DNA of 35,936 nt from Pseudomonadota bacterium (lineage in GTDB: Bacteria; Bdellovibrionota_C; UBA2361; OMIW01): NCBI GenBank assembly GCA_900299205.1, contig OMIW01000088.1, positions 1 through 35,936 of the forward strand, in the 5' to 3' direction. This document shows, piece by piece, positions 1 through 35,389 of this stretch. The first letter of the stretch is position 1; each line of letters begins with the position of its first letter. The notes below the pieces were generated by a model. It ran no database searches. It was given only the letters and a program-made list of their open reading frames with translations, and had not been told where the DNA came from. Both the position numbers and the translations under genes were made by a program.

Positions 1-963
1 CGCTGGTATACCAGCGCGAATAGTCAGAGAGATACCCGATGCAGGGGTACCAAAAAGCTCCCCTCCCCGAACGGATCCCGAGAAGAAGCCGGGGATTTTT
101 TTTATTCCGCTCGGGATGATAGCTATTTGAGGGTCAAGAGGATCTTGCTCAGGGTACGATTCATCGGCATAAAGGAGCGCTTTTCCTCCCACGATGATGT
201 CATCGGCTCGGCGATCTCGAGGTACTTCAAATCCAAATGCCGCCGCCATGGCGACCCGCTCCTCTGGACTGTTATCTCGGTCAAAGACATTTCTGTCGAG
301 TGTATAAGCTCCATCGAGCTCAACGCCAACTCCTCCGATAACATCTCCTGCCTTATAAAGGGGTATTCCCCCTGGATCCGCTGAGAGCCCCAACGGAAGA
401 GGCCGAGGACCGACCGATTGCTTGAGGATGTCTCCACACGGCAACTGAGAAAATTGAACGCCAAAGAGAGGCCCCGCTGGTTGTCGCCGTTCCTGCGGAT
501 AAAAATGTTCCTGAACTATGAGACTCGCTGTTCTCGTTGAGAACGCTTGCCCCTGACTCGAGAGATACGCTCCTGTCCCTGCCTTTGAGATAGCGGCTAA
601 AACCGCGGGTACCTGTGCGCCCTCAAGACCTCCCACCGCTCCTAATTGACCGTCGATTCGGGTATCGGAACGCGCCCCCGGCATCACGTACACTGCCAAT
701 ACATTTCCGACTCGGTCGACAACGGCCAAAGTCGCCTTTAAGCCACTCGCCGAGGCGGCCGAGACTCCCCGCCGAATCACCGAATGAACCTCATCAACAG
801 AGATCGCCTGGTGGGGACACGAGCCATCACACCCCCCATCCTGTCCACCATTAGACGCTCCCCCGCCCCCGCATCCGGATAGAATCGCCGGAACGGGCAA
901 TAGTGGCAGGGTCAGAGCCCAAATAGTCTGGACAAATTTTCGGTATGTAACACTCTCATACAT
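1..963 (-). CDS. GlcG/HbpS-like (DUF336) heme-binding lipoprotein, C-terminus truncated by window edge
   Basis: Own translation of the reverse strand from ATG at 961-963 stays open to position 1: MYESVTYRKFVQTIWALTLPLLPVPAILSGCGGGG (lipobox LSGC) ... ASGLKATLAVVDRVGNVLAVYVMPGARS ... AISKAGTGAYLSSQGQAFSTRTASLIVQEHF. Absent from the ORF track because no stop lies inside the window. Confidence 0.8.
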   Translation of the reverse strand, partial: MYESVTYRKFVQTIWALTLPLLPVPAILSGCGGGGASNGGQDGGCDGSCPHQAISVDEVHSVIRRGVSAASASGLKATLAVVDRVGNVLAVYVMPGARSDTRIDGQLGAVGGLEGAQVPAVLAAISKAGTGAYLSSQGQAFSTRTASLIVQEHFYPQERRQPAGPLFGVQFSQLPCGDILKQSVGPRPLPLGLSADPGGIPLYKAGDVIGGVGVELDGAYTLDRNVFDRDNSPEERVAMAAAFGFEVPRDRRADDIIVGGKALLYADESYPEQDPLDPQIAIIPSGIKKIPGFFSGSVRGGELFGTPASGISLTIRAGIPA

Positions 964-990
964 AAGAAACCTCTCCCCCACATCATCAGC

Positions 991-2292
991 CTACCTCTCT
1001 TGCCCTGGCGAAGGTGTCTCGAACGCTGATTCCTTTCCTTCCCCATCTCCGTGATACCGATGACAACTGATACACGCTGAGCCGAGACCTCCGTGACCCT
1101 TTTCATCTCTCTTGATGCCATGACAATCCTTGCATTCCTTCATGGAGGGAAGCAAAACATCAGTGCTAACCTTCGAGGTCTCAACTCCTTTATGACAGGA
1201 GTCACAAGAGAAGGATTTATGAGGACTATGATCGAAGTTTGCTCGGGTTAGCCACCGCTCAGTAACCTCTGGCTGTTTGACCTCGTAGAATGTTTCAAGA
1301 GGCCCGATAAATTGGGCCGAATCAGCCCCCTTCCCACCTTCAGAATCAATTTCAGAAATATGGTGACAGAGGTCACACCCCGTCTTCGTAAATAGCGTTT
1401 TCTCAGCTTCCCGCGTCCTTTGAATAACAGAGCTCGCTGAACGGCCCGCTATTTCCTGAGTTGCCTGAAAGGCGGCATGTCGGGGGAGCATCCGTTCCCG
1501 ACCTTGGTCTGAATCTGACGAACCCCGCAGGACCTCAGCTCCAAAAAGTTCGTCCTTCGCGTACTCACCAAAAAGAAAATCAACAACCTCTTGAGGGGAA
1601 GCATGGGGAGCTATCGTCTGCGGACGGCCTTCATCAAATGTGAGAGGATGGCACCGAGCACAGTCCCTCTCGTATCGAACTTCCTGAAAAAGTCTCCGAT
1701 CATTTTGCTCATGGTGACAGTTCGAACATTCGAGCTGCTCCTTCCCCTCTGGACCTCGTATCGGTTCCTTCAGATGAACTCGGTGATTAAAAACCAAAGT
1801 TCCCGGGTCAGAGAGTTTTCGTATACCGGGGTGATCTTCAAACGAAGCAACATCTCGCAACTCCGTTCTTTCCCCCTTGCTACTCAGGCTGGCGTGACAA
1901 TCGGTGCAGAGCGAATCTCTGCGAATCTTCAGATTCTCCTCACCGTGATGCTCATGGTGACAAGAGATACATTGGTCTTGATTCTTCCCCGATGCAGGGT
2001 GAAACGAGGGATGATCGCTTAATTGGTGACAAGATTGACAGCTTGCATTTGAGACCCGCTCAAACGGCTCCTTGTGACAACTCTGACAGTCGGAGCCGAG
2101 AAATGTGTGTTGACTAGAGAGATTTCCCACACTCCAAATCTCTTTATTTTTCCCCTTAAGGGGTATGACGAGAAATGCAAAAAAAATAACTGCACAGAGC
2201 AAAGCAGAGAGAGATGCTTTGCACGGCATACACCCACCAACGAGGAGCCGCCTTCCCTGTTGCAATTTTGGATCGTCTCCCCGCCCTGCCAC
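991..2292 (-). CDS. Multiheme cytochrome c (10 CxxCH motifs), N-terminal hydrophobic signal/anchor
   Basis: 433-aa ORF with CQSCH, CQSCH, CISCH, CTDCH, CSNCH, CARCH, CDLCH, CDSCH, CKDCH, CISCH. The GTG start overlaps the TAG stop of the upstream gene; an internal ATG (MPCKASLSALLCAVIFF) is an alternative start. Confidence 0.88.
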   Translation of the reverse strand: MAGRGDDPKLQQGRRLLVGGCMPCKASLSALLCAVIFFAFLVIPLKGKNKEIWSVGNLSSQHTFLGSDCQSCHKEPFERVSNASCQSCHQLSDHPSFHPASGKNQDQCISCHHEHHGEENLKIRRDSLCTDCHASLSSKGERTELRDVASFEDHPGIRKLSDPGTLVFNHRVHLKEPIRGPEGKEQLECSNCHHEQNDRRLFQEVRYERDCARCHPLTFDEGRPQTIAPHASPQEVVDFLFGEYAKDELFGAEVLRGSSDSDQGRERMLPRHAAFQATQEIAGRSASSVIQRTREAEKTLFTKTGCDLCHHISEIDSEGGKGADSAQFIGPLETFYEVKQPEVTERWLTRANFDHSPHKSFSCDSCHKGVETSKVSTDVLLPSMKECKDCHGIKRDEKGHGGLGSACISCHRYHGDGEGKESAFETPSPGQER

Positions 2293-3200
2293 TATATGCC
2301 TCCTGCTCCTTTATCGCCTGCTTCTTGGACACCGTGACAACTCACACAACTGAAAAGATTCAGCAATTCATCACTCACATCTCGATAGTACAAAACGACA
2401 AAAATGTGAATCAAAACTGCTACCACCGTTCCAAATGCTATCGGGATATGAAAATATAGCCAGATCTTCAGAAGTGCCTGTGCACGCATTTCACGCTTGA
2501 GTTTGTGCAATAGCTCAAGTCGCCTGTCAATTAATTCAACAAGCTTGTGACCCGCCTCGACCTCTACTTCTGGCAGCTCTTGAATCGCAGCTGCTGCGTT
2601 GGCTACACTCAAGACAACCTCACGACGCGGTTTCAACAAAACAGCCCAAACTGAGGGAACCGTTCCTGTATTCAATTTCTTAAGTAGCGCTGCCGTTGAA
2701 GGGCTCTTCCCTTGGGCTAATTCCGCAATCTCCCTTCCCACCTGCTCAATCTGGTCAAGTAAAGTCCCGAGCGATGCCCCACCCCGGTTCGAGGGCGTCT
2801 GATATGGTACTATCCGATAATTGGCCGCGCCCCAAATTCCTGATGCAATGGTCACTAGCATCAATCCGTAGGCGAGAGTGTGAACATTTATCCCTATCTG
2901 AAATCCGCTATGAAGGAGAACAAGATAGGCTAGCCCCACCCCTATCCAGACGTGAGCCGATAGCCATCCTTGAAGAGTGGTTATCTTCGAACGGTACGAA
3001 CGCTTCCGTACCCCGAACCACATCAGATACCCGATTAAAATCGCCGAGAGAGCACCCACCGTGTATCCGAAGGTGGTTCCTCCATTCCTCCCACCGAGAG
3101 GTTCTTCCGAGAAATACCATCCAGTGAGCCCCGCTAACACGAGCCCCGTAATCCAAAACCATCGATGGTGCCTGTAGGCGATGAAACTGTCCTGACTCAA
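2292..3200 (-). CDS. Cytochrome-b-like multi-TM membrane protein with C-terminal CxxCH
   Basis: 302 aa with several TM segments and membrane His residues (LSAHVWIGVGLAYLVLLHSGFQIGINVHTLAYGL; YFHIPIAFGTVVAVLIHIFVVLYY) and terminal LFSCVSCHGVQEAG. Confidence 0.75.
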   Translation of the reverse strand: MSQDSFIAYRHHRWFWITGLVLAGLTGWYFSEEPLGGRNGGTTFGYTVGALSAILIGYLMWFGVRKRSYRSKITTLQGWLSAHVWIGVGLAYLVLLHSGFQIGINVHTLAYGLMLVTIASGIWGAANYRIVPYQTPSNRGGASLGTLLDQIEQVGREIAELAQGKSPSTAALLKKLNTGTVPSVWAVLLKPRREVVLSVANAAAAIQELPEVEVEAGHKLVELIDRRLELLHKLKREMRAQALLKIWLYFHIPIAFGTVVAVLIHIFVVLYYRDVSDELLNLFSCVSCHGVQEAGDKGAGGI

Positions 3201-3204
3201 CGAT

Positions 3205-5562
3205 TCAGGCCTCCTTTCCCTTCATGATCGATAAGAAGGCACTCGGATTCACCCGAAGAGCCGCTCCCGTGGGGCATGATCTGACACACGCTGGGCCACC
3301 CTCAAGGTGATGGCACATATCACACTTTGCTGCCTTGGCCGGGCCCTTTTCTTTTGCTCCCTTCCCTCGTAATAACGAAAATAGGGAGAAAAATCCCGCG
3401 CGAGGCCGCTCATATACCATCTGAATGACCCCATAAGGACAATTTCGTGTGCAATTACCGCAACCAATGCACGAATCTCGAATAATCACCTCCCCGTTGG
3501 GCTGACGACTAAGCGCATCTGGTGGACAATCCACCATGCAGAGCGGGTTTTCACAGTGACGACACGATATAGGTATCTGAATCGATGCAAAGCTTTTTCC
3601 GCCCGTCCGATCAAGCCGACTGTACCCCCCATGAGTCGCTGCGCACGCCGCCTCACAATTATCACAGGAGACGCATCGGTCCGAATCGATAACAAGAAAA
3701 TTCTCTGCATCCGTCACTCCCTGTGTGAATAGGAAGTCCAGCAGCTGGCCCTGAGCCGTATTCTGGTTGACGACCGCATTTTCTACTCGACGGGCTCTTG
3801 CCACTCCGATGAATCGCTCGTATTCGCGAGGATTTGCCCTGATGACATGAAGAAAGTCGTCCTTGGAAAGGGTAACAACTTCGCACGGAACCACCGCAGT
3901 TACCGTGGCACTTCGCTGCATCGAGTCTTCGGAGAGCAGAGCCATCTCTCCGAAGTAATTTCCCGCTGCGATGTACGTCTGCACAACGTCTTGCCCCTCC
4001 CTGTTTTTTCTCGATATTTTGACCGAGCCTTTTCTCAGGACGTAGAGCTCATCACCGATATCTCCCTCACGAAAAATGACATCGCCACGCTTGAAACGAC
4101 GGAACTTTATTCGATCGAGGAGTGAAGCTAATAAAGCCGGCTCAGACTCCTGGAAAATTGATGTCTGAAGAGCTCTGAAGAGGAATTCTCGGTCGATCTT
4201 TGCTTTAACCGCATCACTTGAGCTCATCAACTTCAGAATTTGCTTCCGAGGACTCTCAAGAAATAGTCCATCCTCCGCCGCCCGGACCGTTGCAGTTCGT
4301 CGACGGCCCGAAATGAGCCCCATTTCTCCGAAAAATTGCCCCGAATTTACGGACTTTCTTTTCTCCGCTGATATCTCAATATCGACCGATCCAGAGATTA
4401 TGCTAAAAAAAGTATCGGTGTAATCATTCTTCTCGAAGATTACTTCTCCCGCTCTCTTTGAGTGCAGGGTTGATTCAAGGATGAGCTCTCTCAGTTGGGG
4501 TTCACTCAGCTCCTCAAACAGGGGCATCGCCCCGCGGAGAAAACGCAACTTCTCCTCGACAGAGCCTGTCAAAAGCTTAAGGCGCTCCTCCACCATCGGT
4601 TGATCCGCTGGCACAATCGGTGCCCCACGGATATGTTCGATAACCTCATACCCTTGGTTCATCGCTTGCTTTATCAACGGATACCCGATGAGAGCACCGA
4701 TGATGTAGAGTCCCGGCACCGTTGATTCATAAGAATCAGATACCACTGGCGAGGCAGTGGGGCCCGGGTGAGAGAATCCGATACCACACTTCTCGAGAAA
4801 ATCGCGCGGCATGACGCACCCGATTCGTACGATAACCCTATCGCAAGGGATAGTTACATCCTCATGAGGAGTCGCAATCGTTATAGAATCTCCGGTAACC
4901 TGCTCGATTTGAGAATCGTATAAACATCTTATTTTCCGGGCATTTATCGCCTCAAGAATATGCGCCACATTTGCATCTTTTGCACGAGCGAACTCCCCCG
5001 AACGATTGACGAGCGCGACCATGTTTTTTTCACTCAGGGCTAACGCATTCTCGATCGCCGCATCCCCCGCACCAACAACAACGATGTGCTTCCCTTGAAA
5101 GGCATCGGGGTCCGATAGGGTATAGACAACGTGGGGCAGGTTCGCACCTTTGGCCTGAAGGAGGCGAGGAGAACCCTGCATACCTATCGCAAGCACAACC
5201 TTTTCGGCAGTCACTACCCCCTTGTCATAAACTATCTCAAAAATATCCCCTTTTTTTTCGAGCCTTTTTACCTCACCCCTCTCAACATTAATCGAAAGCT
5301 CCTGCGCCTGTTGGTTCCAAACCTCGAGAATCTGCTCGCGTGTCCCAGCCGCGAAATCAATCTCAGACCGGAGGGGGAGCCGCTGAGGCTCAGCCATAAC
5401 ATGCTTGCGGAGCTGATAGTCGAAAATCGTGTTACCTATCTCCCCTTTCTCAAGGAGAATATGCGACAGCCCGAGGCGGGCCGCTCGTGCTGCTGCGCTC
5501 AAGCCTCCTGGGCCAGCGCCCAATACTGCGACGGTGTAGTGGATCGGTGCCGTGTTGCTCAC
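3205..5562 (-). CDS. FAD/NAD(P)-dependent oxidoreductase fused to two cyclic-nucleotide-binding domains and a 4Fe-4S ferredoxin domain
   Basis: 785 aa. Rossmann motifs VAVLGAGPGGLSAAARAARLG and IVVVGAGDAAIENALAL. cNMP-binding signatures GQFFGEMGLISGRRRTATVRA and GNYFGEMALLSEDSMQRSATV. Fe-S motifs CVSCDNCEAAC, CRHCENPLCMVDCP, CIGCGNCTRNCP, CDMCHHLEGGPACVRSCP. Confidence 0.88.
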   Translation of the reverse strand: MSNTAPIHYTVAVLGAGPGGLSAAARAARLGLSHILLEKGEIGNTIFDYQLRKHVMAEPQRLPLRSEIDFAAGTREQILEVWNQQAQELSINVERGEVKRLEKKGDIFEIVYDKGVVTAEKVVLAIGMQGSPRLLQAKGANLPHVVYTLSDPDAFQGKHIVVVGAGDAAIENALALSEKNMVALVNRSGEFARAKDANVAHILEAINARKIRCLYDSQIEQVTGDSITIATPHEDVTIPCDRVIVRIGCVMPRDFLEKCGIGFSHPGPTASPVVSDSYESTVPGLYIIGALIGYPLIKQAMNQGYEVIEHIRGAPIVPADQPMVEERLKLLTGSVEEKLRFLRGAMPLFEELSEPQLRELILESTLHSKRAGEVIFEKNDYTDTFFSIISGSVDIEISAEKRKSVNSGQFFGEMGLISGRRRTATVRAAEDGLFLESPRKQILKLMSSSDAVKAKIDREFLFRALQTSIFQESEPALLASLLDRIKFRRFKRGDVIFREGDIGDELYVLRKGSVKISRKNREGQDVVQTYIAAGNYFGEMALLSEDSMQRSATVTAVVPCEVVTLSKDDFLHVIRANPREYERFIGVARARRVENAVVNQNTAQGQLLDFLFTQGVTDAENFLVIDSDRCVSCDNCEAACAATHGGYSRLDRTGGKSFASIQIPISCRHCENPLCMVDCPPDALSRQPNGEVIIRDSCIGCGNCTRNCPYGVIQMVYERPRAGFFSLFSLLRGKGAKEKGPAKAAKCDMCHHLEGGPACVRSCPTGAALRVNPSAFLSIMKGKEA

Positions 5563-5825: not shown

Positions 5826-7073
5826 ATGCCCCCTTTCCGAATTCATCACCTCTCTCGACCTGCTATTCAGGCTCTTATATTGGCCGTCCTCGCATGCGCC
5901 ACTACCCCGCCATCTTCAGGGGAGACTCCCTCCTCCCCATCAATTCAATCGACCGCCCCCCGCTATCTCGGGGTAAGCTCCTGTGCATCGTCGAACTGTC
6001 ACGGCTCCTCCCGCCCTCGAGAGACCTCACCCGTCCTCCAGAACGAGTTTTTCTCCTGGTACAAAAAGGATGAACACTCAAAGGCCTACAAGTCCCTCCT
6101 CACACCCGAAGCAAAGCGCATGGCCTTTCATCTCGGGCTCGGTGCTCCCGAGAAGGAGCATCGTTGCCTGAATTGTCACGCGACGAATGCTCCCGCTCAT
6201 CTTCAGGGGGAACGATTTGCCCTTTCGGATGGAGTGGGTTGTGAATCATGTCACGGAGCGGCTGACGGGTGGATTAAGGCCCATGTAGAGAAGGGAGCGA
6301 CGCATCAGAGCAACATCGCCAACGGACTGAGAGATCTCGACTCCCCCGTCGCGAGAGCCTCCCTCTGCATCGATTGTCATGGGGTAACGGGGAAAAATGG
6401 CCTCGACCACACCCTCTACGGAGCTGGTCATCCTCGGATTGAATTTGAACTTGATAGCTATCAGGCCGTTATGCCTCGACACTGGCGCGAGGATGATGAC
6501 TATCGCGCGCGAAAATCAACAGTATCCCGAACGACGGCTTGGCTTCTCGGTCAATACACCCTTGCAAAGAATGTAACAAAGCTCGCCAAGGCCCAGGGTA
6601 ATTCTCCTGATTTCTCCCTTTATCAATGCTACTCATGTCACCACGACTTTTCAGAAAAACAGTTTCTTTGGAAAAATTACCGAGGAACTCCCGGAAAGCC
6701 GCCTCTTAACGATGCCGCCATCGATATTCTCGCAACCACCCTCAACCGTCCTGCTACTCAGTTGGATCATTCCCTCGATACCGTTCGCCGAGAACTTGAG
6801 GAGGATGCCATTTCGGCGAGGCAGAAGGGTGAAATGCTCCGATCTTTATTGATCTCCCTCACCCGACCAGCAGACTTTTCCCTCCAATATGTCGAGCAGG
6901 CGATTATGGGGGTTTCGGTTCTTCTTTCAGAGCTGGATGCCGATCCTGCGATTGCATCGATGACCCCTCAAGAGCGGGCGCTGTACAAGGAGGTCGAATC
7001 CTCCCGCACTGTAAATCCTGACCGGGTCCGAGAGCTTGCGCTCCAAGCCCTAAAAACAATCGGTAAGCGATAA
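5826..7073 (+). CDS. Periplasmic multiheme cytochrome c (cytochrome c554-like)
   Basis: 415 aa with signal peptide; motifs CASSNCH (CX4CH), CLNCH, CESCH, CIDCH, CYSCH. Confidence 0.83.
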   Translation: MPPFRIHHLSRPAIQALILAVLACATTPPSSGETPSSPSIQSTAPRYLGVSSCASSNCHGSSRPRETSPVLQNEFFSWYKKDEHSKAYKSLLTPEAKRMAFHLGLGAPEKEHRCLNCHATNAPAHLQGERFALSDGVGCESCHGAADGWIKAHVEKGATHQSNIANGLRDLDSPVARASLCIDCHGVTGKNGLDHTLYGAGHPRIEFELDSYQAVMPRHWREDDDYRARKSTVSRTTAWLLGQYTLAKNVTKLAKAQGNSPDFSLYQCYSCHHDFSEKQFLWKNYRGTPGKPPLNDAAIDILATTLNRPATQLDHSLDTVRRELEEDAISARQKGEMLRSLLISLTRPADFSLQYVEQAIMGVSVLLSELDADPAIASMTPQERALYKEVESSRTVNPDRVRELALQALKTIGKR

Positions 7074-7759: not shown

Positions 7760-10700
7760 CTAAAAATTGAGGTTCACTGCAAGTTTGACCATCGGCTCAC
7801 GCGCAACGATATCTTGGAAGTAGCTCTGCTGATCAAGATTAAGATCCTTTCCGAGGATGTTATCAATCTCAGCGAGGACTACTCCTTGCCGGGTTGGCAA
7901 CCGATAGCCTATTCCAGCCCCGAAGAGCCATCCCCCCGATGAGTCCCCCTCAACAATAAGGCTATTTTCTCTTCCCTGATACCGATAGGTTGACGTCGCC
8001 TGAAAGAAAAATCCATTAGGCAGAAAGTATCGGGAGAATCCCTTCGCTCGATGATCGCGAATAGCCGACCCGTTGAACTCCTGCTCGACTTCCCGGCCAA
8101 ATCGATAATCGACGCCACACACCCACTGAGAACTCAGAATCTGGTACCAGTAGCTATTGAGAAGGTCTTGGTGGATCTCGGTTGATCCAAGTTGATTAAA
8201 TTGAACATCTCTTTCTACCGTGAAGTCATCAAAATTTATCTTCAGGTCATATATTCCCACGCTGTCGGCTCTCTGCAGCCACCGACGAACCCACTCTGCT
8301 CCAATATATCCATTTTTCCACGGCTGAAGATCCGCGCCGGTCCCCAAATTTCGGGAAAAAGTCCCCGGATTATCATTAAATCGTTGCGATATCCCGCCGA
8401 TCAAAGTCGGTTCGATACTCGCAAGGTCGACGTTTACCCCCTTACCGAGCGATTCACCATATCCGATTCGATACATAGCCCTTGTGCTAGGACGAAAGAT
8501 AATCCCCGCTTTCGGATTTACTCGAGAGCGAGTCTCAGTATCCGAGGTAAAGGGTGCCTCATCAAATCCGCTCCACTCGACTCGTTCATAAGAGCCTCCC
8601 AGATTAACAAACAGCGAATCCGACAACGTCACTGTTCCGAGATACGACAGCAACTCACTCCGAAGATTTACGGGTGCAGAACTCTCCAGAGGGATATCAC
8701 TCTGATCGAGTAAGCCAATATTATCCTCTATTATAGTTCGACGATCGATATCATCCCGCTGAGTGGTTGCACTTCTCGCGGTCAAAATCGATGTCAGCTC
8801 ACCCGTTCTTGCAATAAGCTGTCCCTCATTTACCCAGAGCGATGTGTATTGCTTAACATTCGTGTTGACGAGCGCCTCAATATCGACCAATTCCTCATTT
8901 CCGCCTGAGATAAGGGTGTACAGCAAATCATTATCTAAAGAGAACTGATCCAACTTCTCTCGGCCCCGTTCAAACGTACTCTGAAAAATAGCGGTTACGT
9001 CGGGAGCGAATCGATGCAGCCCACCGAAGCTGAATGAACCACCATCGAATTTAGTATTTTCCAGACGATCGCTCCCATCATCAACGATACCTCGTCCCTC
9101 AAGAAAAAACCGATCGCCCCATGTAGGCTGCGCTTGAAGCGAAACCCCGATACGTCCACCAGCAGTTCGCGGGCTCGAATCAAGACCATTCGATACAATT
9201 CCCGACGCAGAGAACCCAGAGACAAGGTTTCCGGATTTATTGGCCGTTATCACCCCCGTCCTTCCCATATCATCGAATGAGTCATACCCACTCGATATTC
9301 CTGTCCTCCAGCCATCCCGCTCAAAAAGCGAGGAATACTCATTAAGGGAAACGCTCGATCCAATCGAATCAATTACATTGATACTGAGAGGGGAGAAGAG
9401 ATCTGCTATTCGACGCTCTGAAAGACTATTATCGGCCGAAAAAACATTTGATTGACTCTCCGAGAGAAGCCTGTGCGCACTCGCATTTCGATAGTCTGAT
9501 ACCATCGCGGATATCGCCTCTATCTTGCCTCGCTCTCCGAATCCAAGCTCCCGGTATGTTCGTGAAAGCGATGCACTCTGAACAGCTGCATCCTCATCCA
9601 GAAGAAATCGAGATCGATAAACCGACCTTTTTTGCGAACGATCACGAGCTTCTTCGATATCACGGAGTGATTCAACGGGCCGATTCTGAGCGAGCTTCAT
9701 AAAGCTCCGATACAGATGTGGCGTGGGGTCGTTGGAATCAAGCTCGATTGCTCGTCGATACTCAGGCTCGGCCGGTTCGTAGGTATCTGCCTCGAAATAG
9801 CTCTTGCCGAGATAACTACGATAAATCGCCCGCGAAGGCTCTAGCACCGTTGCTCGCTCAAAGTGCGCCCGTCCTCCTTCGAGATCCCCTCCATGAACCG
9901 CCAAAAGACCCAGACCAAGGTGTGGTAAGCCAGCCCCCGATTCAGCTTCAGCCGCTCGCTCGAAAGCAACCTTGGCTTGATCGAATGACCGATCCGCCAT
10001 CAGAACGAACCCCAGCACCGTATCGGCGTACCACGAGCGAGAGGATAGCTGCTCAAGAGACGTCCGAGCTTCTGGTACCCGGCCAAACATAAAAAGCAGC
10101 TCAGCCCGCCGGGCGATGATATCGGGATCGCTTGACTTATTGACTTCTCCAAGAACCGCGACCGCCTCTTCAAGGTCGCCCTGCTCCTGAAGAGAAAAAG
10201 AGCGGGCGATCTTTACCGATGGAACCGACGGCGCCAGCACGGCAGCATGCCGCGATATAGCGTTTGCCGCCTCAGCACGCCCCTGCATCAGCCTCACAAC
10301 GGATAACGTAGCAGCACCAATGCCGACCACCTCTGAGGATACTTGAGAGCCTACCTTCTCAGATTCACACGGCACGAGCGCCTGCTCGCCCCGTTCTGCA
10401 TCTCCGAGGGTAACGAGCAATCGACCTCTCAGAACAGCGGCTGCGGAGCATCCCTCCCCCTTCACGGCCTGAAGCTCCTGAAGGGCTCTTGAAAAGTCTC
10501 CCGTTCGAATCGCTTCGACCGCCCGCCGCTCCCGATCCCCACCACGCTCAAGGACAGAGAGATCTTCTTCCCCTCCAATGAGCGGTGCGAAAAGGCTCCA
10601 TTGAACAGTTCGTTCCGAACTCACTATCCCAAAGAGCTGCGGATTTACCCCCTTTTGGAATCGAGCCCCCTGCCCCGATCGGAGCGAGGCCTCACCGTCA

Positions 10701-11188
10701 CTGCTTTTACCCTCAACCGATCCCGAAAGCACCCTCACTGTCGTCCCGTTGCTGTCAATCGCTACCGTGAACTCGGTCCCCCGAATCGCAGCGGTGACAT
10801 GTTCGGTAACAACCGAGGGATGGCGCTCAGAGTGGCTAAAAAAATGCATCGCTCCTGCTAGAAGTCCGAGAGCTCTTTCCTCCTCGGGAAATCGCATCTT
10901 GGCTCCTGAGGGGAGTCGGACATACGAACCATCAGCGAGTTTAAGAGCTACCCGCCCAGGCTCGCCCACTCCAATCTCGTCACCAGCCCTGAGGACCATC
11001 GACTCCGTCGCGGGTATCACATTACCCCCTCGGCTGATGGTCGCCGAGCCCTGGAGAGAGAACACGATCGCCGGGCTTTCGACCTCTGACTGTGCCGCCG
11101 GAGCGAAGCACACCGCGAAAAGAAAAATGGAGACGCATCGCCCCGGAAAACGGAACCACTTCTTTGTTCGCACCGTAAGGCAGACCAT
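7760..11188 (-). CDS. FecR domain, TPR repeats and C-terminal outer-membrane beta-barrel-like protein
   Basis: 1142 aa: signal peptide; FecR-like VVTEHVTAAIRGTEFTVAIDSNGTTVRVLSGSVEG; TPR-like middle (LGLLAVHGGDLEGGRAHFERATVLEPSRAIYRSYLGKSYFEA); barrel-like C-terminus ending MVKLAVNLNF. Confidence 0.78.
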   Translation of the reverse strand: MVCLTVRTKKWFRFPGRCVSIFLFAVCFAPAAQSEVESPAIVFSLQGSATISRGGNVIPATESMVLRAGDEIGVGEPGRVALKLADGSYVRLPSGAKMRFPEEERALGLLAGAMHFFSHSERHPSVVTEHVTAAIRGTEFTVAIDSNGTTVRVLSGSVEGKSSDGEASLRSGQGARFQKGVNPQLFGIVSSERTVQWSLFAPLIGGEEDLSVLERGGDRERRAVEAIRTGDFSRALQELQAVKGEGCSAAAVLRGRLLVTLGDAERGEQALVPCESEKVGSQVSSEVVGIGAATLSVVRLMQGRAEAANAISRHAAVLAPSVPSVKIARSFSLQEQGDLEEAVAVLGEVNKSSDPDIIARRAELLFMFGRVPEARTSLEQLSSRSWYADTVLGFVLMADRSFDQAKVAFERAAEAESGAGLPHLGLGLLAVHGGDLEGGRAHFERATVLEPSRAIYRSYLGKSYFEADTYEPAEPEYRRAIELDSNDPTPHLYRSFMKLAQNRPVESLRDIEEARDRSQKRSVYRSRFLLDEDAAVQSASLSRTYRELGFGERGKIEAISAMVSDYRNASAHRLLSESQSNVFSADNSLSERRIADLFSPLSINVIDSIGSSVSLNEYSSLFERDGWRTGISSGYDSFDDMGRTGVITANKSGNLVSGFSASGIVSNGLDSSPRTAGGRIGVSLQAQPTWGDRFFLEGRGIVDDGSDRLENTKFDGGSFSFGGLHRFAPDVTAIFQSTFERGREKLDQFSLDNDLLYTLISGGNEELVDIEALVNTNVKQYTSLWVNEGQLIARTGELTSILTARSATTQRDDIDRRTIIEDNIGLLDQSDIPLESSAPVNLRSELLSYLGTVTLSDSLFVNLGGSYERVEWSGFDEAPFTSDTETRSRVNPKAGIIFRPSTRAMYRIGYGESLGKGVNVDLASIEPTLIGGISQRFNDNPGTFSRNLGTGADLQPWKNGYIGAEWVRRWLQRADSVGIYDLKINFDDFTVERDVQFNQLGSTEIHQDLLNSYWYQILSSQWVCGVDYRFGREVEQEFNGSAIRDHRAKGFSRYFLPNGFFFQATSTYRYQGRENSLIVEGDSSGGWLFGAGIGYRLPTRQGVVLAEIDNILGKDLNLDQQSYFQDIVAREPMVKLAVNLNF

Positions 11189-11381: not shown

Positions 11382-13352
11382 ATGAAACTACCCTTGCGCA
11401 TAGCGGTATCAATCGGTGCCGCCGTAATCGGTGCATTTATCGTGAGCACCTCTTTTTTGGAAGATCTCGACATTCGGCTATCGGACCAGATACTGAGGGT
11501 CCGTGGAAAACAAAAGCCTCCCGCTAAAGTCGTTGTCGTTGCGATTGATGAGACGAGTTATCGCGAGCTAAATATTCCCTTCGGCCCCCCATGGCCACGG
11601 GCGCTCCACGCTCAATTGCTCAATCGGTTGAAGGAGTTCGGCGCAAAAAGGGCAGTTTTCGACGTCTTGTTCATGGGTGAAGGTGCTGATAGGGCTGCTG
11701 ATGTCGCGTTAACCGCTGCCCTGAAAGAGTTGCCCACGGTTATTGGTGTTGAAGCTGCCGTTCGCCATGTTTCAAACCAAGCAGGTGGCTACGAACTCGA
11801 AGAGATCGAGCTGCCGTTTGAGCCGTTCCGGAAATCAGCAAAACTCGCTCTCGTCGGACTGCGGGACGTAAGCGGCGTTATCCGCAACTTCCCCGCCGCT
11901 CGCTCCGAACAGGAGTCCCGATATCCCTTTCTCGCAGAGGCGGCTGCTGGACGAGGAAGACAAGACCCTTCACCGAAACCCGGCCCACGGGATTTGATCC
12001 GTTACTACGGCCCAGGGAGAACGGTACCGATAATTTCTTATTGGGAGCTTCTCCAGGATGAACTTCCGATCGATCGCGACCTGTTTGAGGATGCTATCGT
12101 TTTCGTCGGGATACTCCTCCGCTCCGACACCGGCGCTGCGCAGAAGGATTCGTACCAGACCCCGTTTGGTGGTTCTATGATGTACGGTGTTGAGGTGCAC
12201 GCCACGATCGCAAACAACCTCCTCACCGAAAGCTGGATATCACGACCGAGCAAGGCCGTCGAACTCATCGGCCAGGCTCTTCTTATTGGAGCCCTCGCCT
12301 TCCTCGGCACGACAATAACCCCAATAGCCCTCTCTATTGCAACCATCTCATTGATCATTACCTGGCTGGTGTTGGCTTTTTGGGGATTGAGCACCGGATT
12401 CTTTCTGTGCGGAGGAAGCACCGTCCTCATCGTGGCACCGACCATCCTGCTTGCAAGCACCGGCTATTCATATCTAAGTGCCCGACAATCGGAAGAAAGT
12501 CTAAAATCTGCCTTTTCCCTTTACCTCTCCCCTGAAATGCTTCCCGACCTTCAACGGGAGAAAGATGGCCTCAAACTCGGTGGAGAAAAGCTATGGCTAA
12601 CCGCCCTTTTCACCGATATCGCCGATTTTACCTCGATAACCGAGGAGATGCCTGCGGAGAAGACATCTGAGATGTTAAATGCCTACTTCACCGAGGTAAT
12701 GGAGGTTGTTTTTCAAAACCAAGGGACCCTTATCAAATTTATTGGCGATGCCGTTTTTGCTATTTGGGGAGCACCGGTAAAAATAGCAAACCACGCAGAA
12801 ATGGCGGTTAAAACGGGGCTGGCTATTCAAAAAGAGGTGACTAAATTTAATTCAACCCAGAGATTTCCAGCGCTTATCACCCGTATAGGTATCAACACCG
12901 GACCCATGGTTGTCGGCAATCTCGGCTCAAAAAGGCGCTTCGATTACACCGCAATCGGTGACTCCGTTAATCTCGCGGCTCGACTCGAGGGGCTTAATAA
13001 ATATTTCGGTACTACCCTTATTTTCAGCGAGTCTACCAGAAAGGATGCGGGTGGATTTGCAGGCGCTGTCGAGATTGGGAAGGTACGGGTCAAGGGCAAG
13101 AGAGAGGCAGTTCAACTGTTTACCATGTTTGATCCTCCTCTCGCACCCACTGTTCTTGAGTCATGGAACCGAGCGTGCGATGAATTTTCCCAACTTCGGC
13201 TCGAATCTGCTGAAGCCGGTTATCAGAAGGTGAAAAGTGAAGAGCCACGGCTCGGTAAAGCCTGCTCCCTTTACCTCAGTGAGATAAGACGATGGGCCGA
13301 TTCACCCCCTTCCCAGGGGTGGAGTGGGGAATTAGAGTTTGATTCAAAGTAG
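11382..13352 (+). CDS. CHASE2 domain, TM segments and class III adenylate/guanylate cyclase
   Basis: 656 aa: CHASE2-like VVVVAIDETSYRELNIPFGPPWPRALHAQLLNRLKEFGAKRAVFDVLF, three TM helices, cyclase core LWLTALFTDIADFTSITEEMPAEKTSEMLNAYFTEV...GTLIKFIGDAVFAIWGAP...RIGINTGPMVVGNLGSKRRFDYTAIGDSVNLAARLEG. Confidence 0.92.
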   Translation: MKLPLRIAVSIGAAVIGAFIVSTSFLEDLDIRLSDQILRVRGKQKPPAKVVVVAIDETSYRELNIPFGPPWPRALHAQLLNRLKEFGAKRAVFDVLFMGEGADRAADVALTAALKELPTVIGVEAAVRHVSNQAGGYELEEIELPFEPFRKSAKLALVGLRDVSGVIRNFPAARSEQESRYPFLAEAAAGRGRQDPSPKPGPRDLIRYYGPGRTVPIISYWELLQDELPIDRDLFEDAIVFVGILLRSDTGAAQKDSYQTPFGGSMMYGVEVHATIANNLLTESWISRPSKAVELIGQALLIGALAFLGTTITPIALSIATISLIITWLVLAFWGLSTGFFLCGGSTVLIVAPTILLASTGYSYLSARQSEESLKSAFSLYLSPEMLPDLQREKDGLKLGGEKLWLTALFTDIADFTSITEEMPAEKTSEMLNAYFTEVMEVVFQNQGTLIKFIGDAVFAIWGAPVKIANHAEMAVKTGLAIQKEVTKFNSTQRFPALITRIGINTGPMVVGNLGSKRRFDYTAIGDSVNLAARLEGLNKYFGTTLIFSESTRKDAGGFAGAVEIGKVRVKGKREAVQLFTMFDPPLAPTVLESWNRACDEFSQLRLESAEAGYQKVKSEEPRLGKACSLYLSEIRRWADSPPSQGWSGELEFDSK

Positions 13353-28059: not shown

Positions 28060-28252
28060 GGTTGAATCTCGCTGCTCAACTCAGTAGAATCCCCCGCAGA
28101 GCCCTCGCGGGGGATGCCGTGTGTTCCGCTGTTCGCCTTACGTGCGCCCATCTTACGCCCGATTGCGTGCTATTTTTAAATTCTATGGGAGCTCTTGCCG
28201 CCAAAGCTCTTTGTTGTCAATCACCCTGCAATTTACCAGCGGAGTCTCAACT

Positions 28253-29173
28253 ATGGTGTCATTCGACCTAAAAGGAAAGCGAGTGTTGGTGGCGGGTGTC
28301 GCTGATGATGCAGGTTTTGGCTTTGCGATAGCGAAGGCGTTTGCCGAAGCTGGTGCTTCCGTCTCAGTGGCAACATGGCCCCCGGCGCTCAACATTTTTA
28401 AGGGACTCCTCCAGCGGGGCAAGATAGATGCCGCCCGCGAGCTCTCAGACGGACGCCTCCTTGAGTTCGAGCGGATATACCCCCTTGATGCCGTCTTTGA
28501 TTCTCTCGCTGATGCACCCTCAGAAATCACTGAAAGCCGTCGGTATAAAGAATGTGGTGACTTCTCAATAGCGGGACTCGCAGAGAGCTTGGTGAAGGAC
28601 TTTGGCGACAAACCCCTCGACATAGTCGTTCACTCACTCGCGAATGGTCCCGAGGTAAAAAAACCGCTGATGGAGACCTCTCGACGCGGATACCTTGATG
28701 CCATTAGCGCGAGCAGCTACTCGATGATCTCTTTTGTTCGCCACCTAGCCCCCTTGATGCGAGAAGGTGGGGCCTTTCTCTCCTTAAGCTACCTGGCGGG
28801 GGAGCGGGTCATCCCCGGGTATGGTGGTGGTATGTCATCGGCAAAGGCAGCCCTCGAAAGCGACACCCAGGTGCTCGCATTCGAGGCGGGCCGTCGCTTT
28901 GGTGTACGGGTGAATTGCGTCTCTGCGGGCCCTCTGGCATCGCGGGCCGCCTCAGCAATAGGTTTCATTGATAGGATGGTCGCGTACTGTGCGAAAAACT
29001 CGCCGATTCCCGGGGCAATTTCAGCGACCCAGGTCGCTCATGCTGCCCTCTTTTTGTGCAGCCCATTAGCCTCAGGAATTACCGGCAGCATCGTCCATGT
29101 TGATCACGGCTACCACGCGATGGGTATGAGCGTTTCGGATAATGAGCTCTTTCCGGAAAATTCGGAATCATGA
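28253..29173 (+). CDS. fabI: Enoyl-[acyl-carrier-protein] reductase, plant/Chlamydia-type FabI
   Basis: MVSFDLKGKRVLVAGVADDAGFGFAIAKAFAEAGASV...WPPALNIFKGLLQRGKID...YPLDAVFDSL...SLANGPEVKKPLMETSRRGYLDAISASSYS...GYGGGMSSAKAALESDTQVLAFEAGRR. Confidence 0.93.
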   Translation: MVSFDLKGKRVLVAGVADDAGFGFAIAKAFAEAGASVSVATWPPALNIFKGLLQRGKIDAARELSDGRLLEFERIYPLDAVFDSLADAPSEITESRRYKECGDFSIAGLAESLVKDFGDKPLDIVVHSLANGPEVKKPLMETSRRGYLDAISASSYSMISFVRHLAPLMREGGAFLSLSYLAGERVIPGYGGGMSSAKAALESDTQVLAFEAGRRFGVRVNCVSAGPLASRAASAIGFIDRMVAYCAKNSPIPGAISATQVAHAALFLCSPLASGITGSIVHVDHGYHAMGMSVSDNELFPENSES

Positions 29174-30306: not shown

Positions 30307-30376
30307 AGTTGATCCGTAACCTTGCTTGATCCGTCACCTCGTTTTTTTATCACCTAGCTCCGCATCCCGACAGCCA

Positions 30377-31614
30377 ATGAAATTCTCAATTTTCACCCCA
30401 ACGCATCGATTTAACCACCTGCCCCGACTCGAGGCAAGTTTGCGACGCCAAACGCTCCAGGACTTCGAGTGGGTCATCGTTCCGAACGGCCCAATGCTCG
30501 GTCAAAAGCCTCCGGTCTCTCTTTCTCAGGCCCGGGTTGTCCCGCCCCGTGATACAACGCGAAACGAGATCGGCTACCTCAAAAAGCACGCCTGCCTCTC
30601 ATGCCGAGGTGAGATTCTCGTTGAGGTCGACCACGATGACGAACTGACCCCTGATGCGCTTGAAGAGCTCGCTGCTGCGTTTGCCGATGGTGCAGACTTT
30701 GCTTACTCGAACTTCTGCAACGTCCAGGAGGATGGCTCAGCATACACCTTCGGCGAGGCGTATGGATGGCGATCACGCCCCTTTGAACTCGATGGAAAGC
30801 AGTATACTGAACAGCTCTCGTTTCCTCCCTCCCCCGCTGCATTTAGTAAAATCTGGTACGCCCCCAATCACGTGCGCGCCTGGCGGCGGGACTTCTACGC
30901 CCGCATCGGGGGGCATAACGAGTCGATGCGAGTGCTTGACGATCAGGAGATTCTCGCTCGAACCTATCTCAATGGGACGATCAAGCATATCGATAAGCCG
31001 CTCTACATTTATCACATGCACCCCGGAAACACCTGCTACGGAGAGGAGAACAAAACCATCCAGGAGCAGACGCTCGAGCTTCACGACAGGTACATCTACC
31101 CTCTCGTCGAGCGGTGGTGCGAGCTCGAAGGGTTACGAAAGATCGACCTCTGCGGAGGACACAGCAAACCAGCCGGTTATGAGAGTATCGACATCCAGAA
31201 CGCCGATATTGTCGCAAATCTCGACGAGACCTGGCCGATAGAATCAGGGTCTGTCGGGGTGTTCCGAGCACACGATGCTCTCGAGCATCTGAGGAATCCG
31301 ATTCATGTGATGAAGGAGGCTTATCGCTGCCTCGCACCAAACGGGTGGTTCCTCATCTTCGTGCCCTCAACCGATGGCCGAGGAGCTTTCCAGGATCCAA
31401 CCCACGTCAGCTTCTGGAATTCAAACTCGTTCTGGTATTACACAAAGGCAGAGACCGCCAAATACATCAATACTCCAGTCAGATTTTCAGCTCAACCGGA
31501 TTAAGAACTACTACCCAACAGAGTGGCATCAGACGCACCACATTCTGTACACCAAGGCGGATCTGGTAAAGCTGGTAGAGGGGGAAAGGCCGCCGGGATT
31601 GGTGGAGATTTGAT
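30377..31614 (+). CDS. Glycosyltransferase (family 2-like) fused to SAM methyltransferase; contains a likely 1-nt frameshift near 31484-31487
   Basis: MKFSIFTPTHRFNHLPRLEASLRRQTLQDFEWVIVPNG...EVDHDDELTPDALEEL, then IDLCGGHSKPAGYESIDIQN...FRAHDALEHLRNPIHVMKEAYRCLAPNGWFLIFVPSTDGRGAFQDPTHVSFWN. The C-terminus continues in the ORF 31374..31613 frame after dropping one T from TTTT. Confidence 0.78.
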
Positions 31615-34141: not shown

Positions 34142-35389
34142 CTAATCGCAGGTGAAACTAAAGGACAACTGCGCATCTGCTGGGGCGGTACCGTTCGTCG
34201 AAGATTTTAGACTCACGGTATCGGTTGATGTCAATGCTGCATTCGTGGTTGATTCGCAAGATGTGTCTCCGGCCGCGATGGTACAGCTTACACCGGAACC
34301 CACCGCACCATCCATGATCTCGAATGTTCTGGTTGCACTGCTAGATGGTGCGGTAGAGATGACCGCTCTCAAGTTCGCAGCATCACAATCATGGAGCACA
34401 GGCACTTCCACAGAGGTTTGAGACGTCGTGAGTGCAGAAGACTGCGTCACGCCTTGAGGATAAATATATCGCGTTCCAGTCGTGATTCCGAGCGAGTTCA
34501 CCACCCCGAGGTAGACGCGACCGCCAAATGTGCCCGTTGCACCAGTTGCGCCCTGTGAACCTGTGGCACCTACGGTGCCTTGGGCCCCTGTGGCACCCAC
34601 GGCTCCCTGCGCTCCCGTGGCACCCACGGCCCCCTGAGCCCCAGTTGCACCTGTTGCTCCGGTCGAACCCGTCGCACCAGTGGAACCGGTATCACCTTGT
34701 GCACCAGTTACACCCTGATCACCGGTTGCACCCTGCGCACCAGTTACTCCCTGGCCTCCCGTCGATCCCGTATCGCCCTGAGCACCAGTCGCACCAGTCG
34801 CACCAGTCGCACCAGTCGCACCAGTCGCACCAGTCGCACCAGTGACACCCTGTGAACCGACCGGCCCCTGAAAACCCGTAGCTCCAAAAGCTCCCTGAGC
34901 TCCCGTTGCACCCTGAGCACCGGTGGCACCTTGTGCACCTGCGCCCGTTGCTCCAACAGCACCCTGTGCACCCGTTGCTCCATCAGCTCCTGCTGCACCC
35001 GTTGCTCCAACAGCACCAGTTGCGCCCGTTGCTCCAACAGCACCCTGTGCACCCGTTGCTCCATCAGCCCCAACAGCACCCGTAGCACCCTGGGCTCCGT
35101 CTGCACCAACCGCTCCGGCTAAACCTTGCGCCCCAGCGCTACCCTGCGCCCCTTTCGCGCCCTCAGCACCAGCCTTACCCTGAGCTCCTTGTGGCCCCAC
35201 CAGGTTGCGTCTCGTGACTAATCGCTCGTTCTGCTTACAAAACTTGTCCCGCTCTGCTACTTGGAGCGTTGTGTTGTCCTGGCAAAGGATACGGGTTCTT
35301 GTTTGAGCAACCGCATGGGTCGAAGAAAACGTAGCAAGCGAAACGACGGCGAACCCGCCGGCGATGAGGGGTTTCGTTATTTTTTTCAT
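34142..35389 (-). CDS. Secreted collagen-like protein (Gly-X-Y repeat)
   Basis: 415 aa: signal peptide [29 protein letters not shown], Cys-containing N-terminal segment, long [14 protein letters not shown] region, C-terminal Cys-containing beta-rich domain ending SFTCD. Confidence 0.9.
34782..34844 (+). repeat. 9-bp tandem repeat: gcaccagtc x6 plus one variant
   Basis: Read directly; encodes consecutive Gly-Ala-Thr triplets on the minus strand. Confidence 0.93.
34940..35068 (+). repeat. 48-bp direct repeat pair with 81-bp period
   Basis: tgcgcccgttgctccaacagcaccctgtgcacccgttgctccatcagc at 34940-34987 and 35021-35068. Confidence 0.9.

Follow-up and report, generated by a model that had tools for sequence, protein, structure and literature searches.

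Among described systems, the gene cluster analysed here most closely recalls the porin-cytochrome conduits (MtrCAB, MtoAB/PioAB, Geobacter Pcc, PCC3 and Uet), which likewise co-encode a redox entry in the inner membrane, a periplasmic multiheme cytochrome, an outer-membrane barrel and an exported multiheme cytochrome. The cluster was recognised in contig OMIW01000088.1 of assembly GCA_900299205.1, classified under Bdellovibrionota_C; the 35,936 nucleotides analysed are called the window. Unlike those conduits, its entry is a cytoplasmic flavoprotein of the NAD(P)H type (using reduced pyridine nucleotides) instead of quinol oxidation, and it adds cyclic nucleotide monophosphate (cNMP) binding and FHA domains, as well as an LVIVD propeller on the exported multiheme protein. 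Its cytochromes C and E score far under the cut-offs for Mtr, DmsE and OmcA, and none of these models matches the genes that we label BAR and MHC. The Uet system of Tenderia and Gallionella was set aside as a candidate identity, because its components are different (11-heme and triheme cytochromes, PPIase, NHL repeats). We conclude that genes A, B and C, followed in relatives by D, BAR, MHC and E, probably constitute a trans-envelope electron conduit whose entry enzyme, A, is controlled by cyclic AMP (cAMP). No published description of the cluster was found in open-licence PMC literature (subscription literature may hold one), and the Mtr, Tenderia and iron-oxidizer literature that we checked does not mention a cyclic-nucleotide domain; this is a real, conserved electron-transfer cluster that apparently had not been described before.

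The entry enzyme also resembles, in its separate parts, proteins of other systems. AegA and YgfT similarly join a pyridine-nucleotide flavoprotein and a HydN-like ferredoxin in one chain, but the AegA model matches A only over the ferredoxin (residues 621-779; 1.4e-25, 89.5 bits against a cut-off of 1003), and A differs in its YpdA/TrxR-like flavoprotein, inserted tandem cNMP domains and membrane partners. YpdA/Bdr and the TrxR-like ferredoxin-NADP reductases have a fold and FAD/NAD(P) motifs that match the first 320 residues of A, whereas A scores 148.6 bits with the YpdA model, under its cut-off of 339.9, and has this part fused to cNMP and ferredoxin domains. Like A, where two follow each other, the regulatory subunit of protein kinase A (PKA-R), protein kinase G (PKG) and CRP contain cNMP domains with intact cassettes, but in A a redox enzyme takes the place of the kinase or DNA-binding domain as effector. 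The genes concerned lie in the window as follows.

Gene A, 3205-5562, minus strand: 785 aa, GTG start; YpdA/TrxR-like flavoprotein with tandem cNMP domains and a four-cluster ferredoxin
Gene A, residues ~1-320: NAD(P)H-type flavoprotein part, YpdA/TrxR fold without the CxxC redox pair
Gene A, residues ~350-470 and ~474-595: tandem cNMP-binding domains
Gene A, residues ~620-775: ferredoxin with four [4Fe-4S] clusters
Gene B, 2292-3200, minus strand: 302 aa, TTG start; predicted diheme b-type membrane cytochrome
Gene C, 991-2292, minus strand: 433 aa, GTG start; membrane-anchored periplasmic decaheme cytochrome c
Gene D, 1-981, minus strand: HbpS-like lipoprotein, first ~327 aa only, the rest cut off by the contig end
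Gene E, 5826-7073, plus strand: exported c554-like cytochrome with four CxxCH, divergent from A (PF13435, 3e-12)

Conservation and extent of the cluster

The original prediction placed three tightly packed genes on the minus strand, and this agrees with the coordinates of the open reading frames (ORFs), with the 4-nt gap between A and B (3201-3204) and with the 1-nt overlap in which base 2292 is common to the TAG of B and the GTG of C. That these three genes form the whole operon needs to be qualified: A, B and C are packed as proposed, but the unit is larger, continuing into D and, in relatives, into BAR, MHC and E. The window comes from a draft genome of 2.45 Mb in 206 contigs, a metagenome-assembled genome (MAG) that is ~90% complete, and its contig stops inside gene D.

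To follow the unit elsewhere we scanned 84,980 species genomes and inspected the loci in the best 80 of 575 stretches with some tblastn match, the stretches beyond these possibly including other cNMP proteins. Nearly all of the 80 loci encode full-length A, with 44-59% identity. The unit, conserved at 44-60% identity in bacteria of the Alpha-, Beta-, Gamma- and delta-types, is not a chance arrangement. Within the order and class of the window, 16 of 38 genomes (the window's own included) have a match to A at E<=1e-30. In most loci tblastn finds B, C and D in this order after A, and the synteny of the 785-aa protein with b-type and multiheme genes, which had been offered as a check on the original prediction, proves near universal. 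ORF clustering extends the full unit to A-B-C-D-BAR-MHC plus the further cytochrome E, with tight co-directional median spacings of 10 nt from A to B, 7 from B to C, -20 from D to BAR, 6 from BAR to MHC, -11 from MHC to E and 2.5 from E to A. In order-level relatives the order E, A, B, C, D, BAR, MHC is the same as far as the contigs reach (L106-L114, L116). We rejected the existence of betaproteobacterial A genes devoid of B and C as an artefact of the 8-kb flank: B is encoded by 13/13 genomes whose A had seemed to stand without these two genes, and three such betaproteobacterial regions that were fetched read B-C-D-BAR-MHC-E-A, with B ~11 kb upstream of A.

A distant version of the cluster, G009 (L115 2760-7258), encodes an A' protein that is 28% identical to A and has one recognised cNMP domain, in an operon of A', B' and an FHA-decaheme protein C'; no recognisable D, BAR or MHC lies beside these genes. 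Hence A-B-C behaves as a separable inner module, of which the G009 operon may be the ancestral form.

Predicted relay across the inner membrane

Pfam recognises in A the Pyr_redox_3 domain (6.8e-34), two PF00027 cNMP_binding stretches (1.1e-43) and several Fer4 domains. Its AlphaFold model has a predicted local distance difference test score (pLDDT) of 81; the flavoprotein fold is nearest to YpdA/Bdr (PDB 7a7b, TMt 0.86) and TrxR/FNR, the closest PDB matches of the cNMP pair are PKG and PKA-R, and the ferredoxin part is nearest to HycB. Among 82 sequences of A, the GxGPxG motif for FAD and the GxGDxxIEN motif for NAD(P) are essentially invariant, N186-R187 together with the near-invariant R193 recall the thioredoxin reductase NADP loop, and the 16 cysteines of the ferredoxin are present without exception (82/82). 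The same holds for the phosphate-binding cassettes that the original prediction had singled out for alignment: both domains combine the cNMP fold with the Gly-Glu and Arg characteristic of the family, invariant in 82/82 sequences as G412, E413, R420 and R422 in the first domain and G538, E539 and R550 in the second, with a Ser or Thr after the cassette Arg in most sequences, as in CRP and PKG. That both cNMP pockets are intact is consequently well supported by the alignment, and these domains would be expected to bind cAMP or cGMP. They were also considered as part of a transcription factor of the CRP/FNR kind, an assignment rejected given that the Pfam matches of A include no helix-turn-helix or other DNA-binding domain; what comes after the cNMP domains is the ferredoxin.

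For B, five histidines (83, 97, 107, 251 and 265) are invariant in 64/64 sequences, and within the pairs His83/97 and His251/265 the residues are 14 positions apart, the spacing of diheme cytochromes b, as befits two transmembrane histidine pairs. Judged by eye, the hydrophobic stretches and the positive-inside residues delineate about five transmembrane helices and a large cytoplasmic insert, and the AlphaFold model is fairly confident (pLDDT 84.7). The protein matches no Pfam or NCBIfam family and no PDB profile. It was ruled out as a member of the known families (cyt b, b561, NarI) because such matches, including those to PDB sequences and folds, are missing, and we regard it as a predicted diheme b-type membrane cytochrome. 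The C-terminal CxxCH noted in the original prediction does exist in the B of the window, yet only within a 30-aa tail (window 2292-2380, minus strand), predicted to be periplasmic, that is absent from 63/64 B sequences; possibly it binds an extra c heme gained in the window's lineage.

The ten CxxCH motifs of C are conserved in 62-63 of 63 sequences, in which nine further conserved histidines fit bis-His ligation, and Pfam places the protein with cytochromes c3/c7; its identification as MtrA/DmsE was rejected at 24.7 bits against a DmsE-family cut-off of 192.2. In most relatives C begins with a cytoplasmic FHA domain (PF00498). This domain is absent from the C of the window, from that of G007 (L112 10081-11307) and, by tblastn match, apparently from that of Limnobacter (L121 1852-3255), the other clustered members beginning about 110 residues earlier; the FHA-less forms suggest that separate lineages have lost this phospho-peptide reader.

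Combining these elements, we infer that the FAD of A would accept electrons from NAD(P)H and that the four [4Fe-4S] clusters would hand them on to B at its cytoplasmic face; the two b hemes of B would then ferry them over the inner membrane to the periplasmic decaheme C. The relay from flavin through iron-sulfur clusters and b hemes to c hemes, as originally proposed, is well supported by the invariance of its cofactor residues over 82 sequences of A and 64 of B; its gating by a second messenger is a more tentative matter, considered below.

Outer half of the cluster and direction of electron flow

Gene D encodes a protein with a PF03928 domain (4.2e-06) and the lipobox LSGC, and its homologue is syntenic downstream of C in relatives. 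BAR ends with Tyr, Phe or Trp in 56/56 sequences and contains no CxxCH or heme motif, features that fit an outer-membrane barrel, while MHC begins with a signal-like sequence and contains ten CxxCH as well as LVIVD repeats forming a propeller. In relatives, therefore, a barrel predicted from its sequence is followed at a median of 6 nt by a multiheme protein in one operon, as in porin-cytochrome systems. In Betaproteobacteria and in those order-level relatives that were inspected, E is a conserved neighbour of A, either divergent from it or placed between MHC and A. The half formed by D, BAR and MHC, with E, would move electrons onto or across the outer membrane, to an acceptor there or outside the cell; in the window's organism it presumably lies beyond the contig end.

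The outer genes could instead serve redox reactions in the periplasm or at the outer membrane, such as the reduction of heme or metals at D or E, and not true extracellular electron transfer. Such a role would accord with the HbpS-like, heme-related character of D, the missing CxxCH of BAR and the occurrence in G009 of the inner genes alone, but we deem it rather unlikely, given that in most of the loci inspected D, BAR and the exported 10-heme LVIVD protein are closely packed, in the manner of porin-cytochrome conduits.

How should the direction of flow be viewed? A pangenome of the Gallionellaceae reports, as cluster 403, a 10-heme 'Forkhead-associated protein' in 27/87 genomes of iron-oxidizers (PMC10734462). 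With its FHA domain and ten CxxCH it has the architecture of C in relatives, an identity drawn from the annotation; the portions of the paper used here present it only as a cytochrome cluster, without operon, cNMP protein or function. This protein, together with the reversibility of multiheme Mto/Mtr conduits for which the same paper cites evidence, lends some weight to inward flow, whereby the outer cytochromes would oxidise an extracellular donor such as Fe(II) and A would make reduced pyridine nucleotide or ferredoxin in a cAMP-gated manner. We consider this improbable: forming NAD(P)H from donors at the level of Fe(II) is uphill, A and B seem to have no module resembling energy coupling, and many of the carriers found belong to heterotrophic genera. 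Outward export of electrons from NAD(P)H is accordingly the direction that we favour.

Cyclases and the possible control of entry

To our knowledge, bacterial electron export is controlled by transcription, the quinone pool or the supply of acceptor. Two further genes of the window are relevant here.

FecR + TPR protein, 7760-11188, minus strand: adjoins the cyclase (PF04773, 3e-12)
CHASE2 + class III cyclase, 11382-13352, plus strand (PF05226, 1.6e-38; PF00211, 8.9e-22)

This cyclase, 5.8 kb from A, is one of only two found in the genome, and its FTD, IKFIGD and DYTAIGDSVNLAAR residues comprise the two metal Asp, the Lys/Thr substrate pair and the Asn/Arg transition-state pair, making it a candidate source of nucleotide for A. 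A class III cyclase occurs in the fetched flank of 14/80 loci against ~1.9 expected from the cyclase density in 36 of these genomes (Poisson p 1.5e-8), and of the genomes in the order and class of the window, 15/16 with A have a cyclase compared with 10/22 lacking A (Fisher p 0.002), both tests ignoring relatedness. All 36 A-bearing genomes tested possess a class III cyclase, and 13/15 cyclases have the adenylate-type Lys/Thr residues. The arrangements are diverse: in Gammaproteobacteria the cyclase is upstream and co-directional, with TPR and FecR genes; in Limnobacter-type loci it is convergent, with another FecR-type gene behind; and in Solimonas it is a different cyclase, without CHASE2. 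On a quick tree of A the cyclase label needs six changes. In loci of Gamma- and Betaproteobacteria, too, a FecR protein accompanies A and the cyclase, in L066 lying between the two; it is a possible associated sensor or assembly part. On plasmid pMSHV of Sphingobium herbicidovorans, directly after C (L103 23158-24006), there is a metallophosphoesterase most like SpdA/CpdA, though below their cut-offs, which is possibly a matched phosphodiesterase for the cluster.

Since A has two intact cNMP sites and often lies beside an adenylate cyclase, a second messenger may be a direct switch of the current. The cNMP domains, situated between flavin and ferredoxin, would bind cAMP from the CHASE2 adenylate cyclase and govern the passage of electrons from flavin to ferredoxin, so that electron flow would be set post-translationally; the FHA domain of C would be a second cytoplasmic control point in most relatives. 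The sequences themselves establish the gene anatomy, the conservation of the residues for cofactors and nucleotide, the synteny and the linkage to cyclases. We infer NAD(P)H as the donor, the outward direction, cAMP as the ligand, the gating and its sign and the terminal acceptor, and advance only tentatively, as a possibility short of an even chance, that cAMP directly switches NAD(P)H-driven electron export, at the post-translational level, via a widely spread seven-gene conduit.

Several observations weigh against the reading of a cAMP-controlled conduit. The fetched flank holds no cyclase in 66/80 loci, among order-level relatives the window alone has one close by (that of G016 being ~19 kb away), and the neglect of relatedness tempers the statistics above. 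Intact cassettes predict nucleotide binding by A, but not gating. The model of B has no PDB fold match at E<=0.001, and BAR and MHC were not found in the window's MAG, an absence not established, as the contig ends in D. Finally, many carriers are, as far as we know, aerobic heterotrophs without known extracellular respiration, which leaves the acceptor obscure.

The scarcity of adjacent cyclases and the one recognised cNMP domain of G009 would also suit a conduit that is real but under transcriptional control, its cNMP domains being structural or sensing a constitutive ligand and the cyclase linkage reflecting shared regulation of envelope genes. This we judge unlikely, because the residues of ligand contact are invariant in both domains, which is needless for a merely structural domain, and the cyclases occur in several separate arrangements. 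If direct control by cAMP is true, cAMP would be a rapidly acting valve for respiratory or extracellular current, and A a component of a cyclic-nucleotide-gated electron channel, rather than of an ion channel or a transcription switch. Because culturable Proteobacteria (Limnobacter, Solimonas, Lysobacter, Duganella, Sphingobium) carry the cluster, it is open to testing; surveys of extracellular electron transfer in lakes and soils would gain a new family of conduits to look for.

Elsewhere in the window, a 415-aa protein (34142-35389, minus strand) contains collagen triple-helix repeats (PF01391, 2.4e-32), and one protein (30326-31504, plus strand) joins a glycosyltransferase family 2 domain and a methyltransferase domain. 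The enoyl-ACP reductase encoded at 28121-29173 (plus strand) exceeds the PRK06300 NCBIfam cut-off and stands well apart from the usual FabI models.

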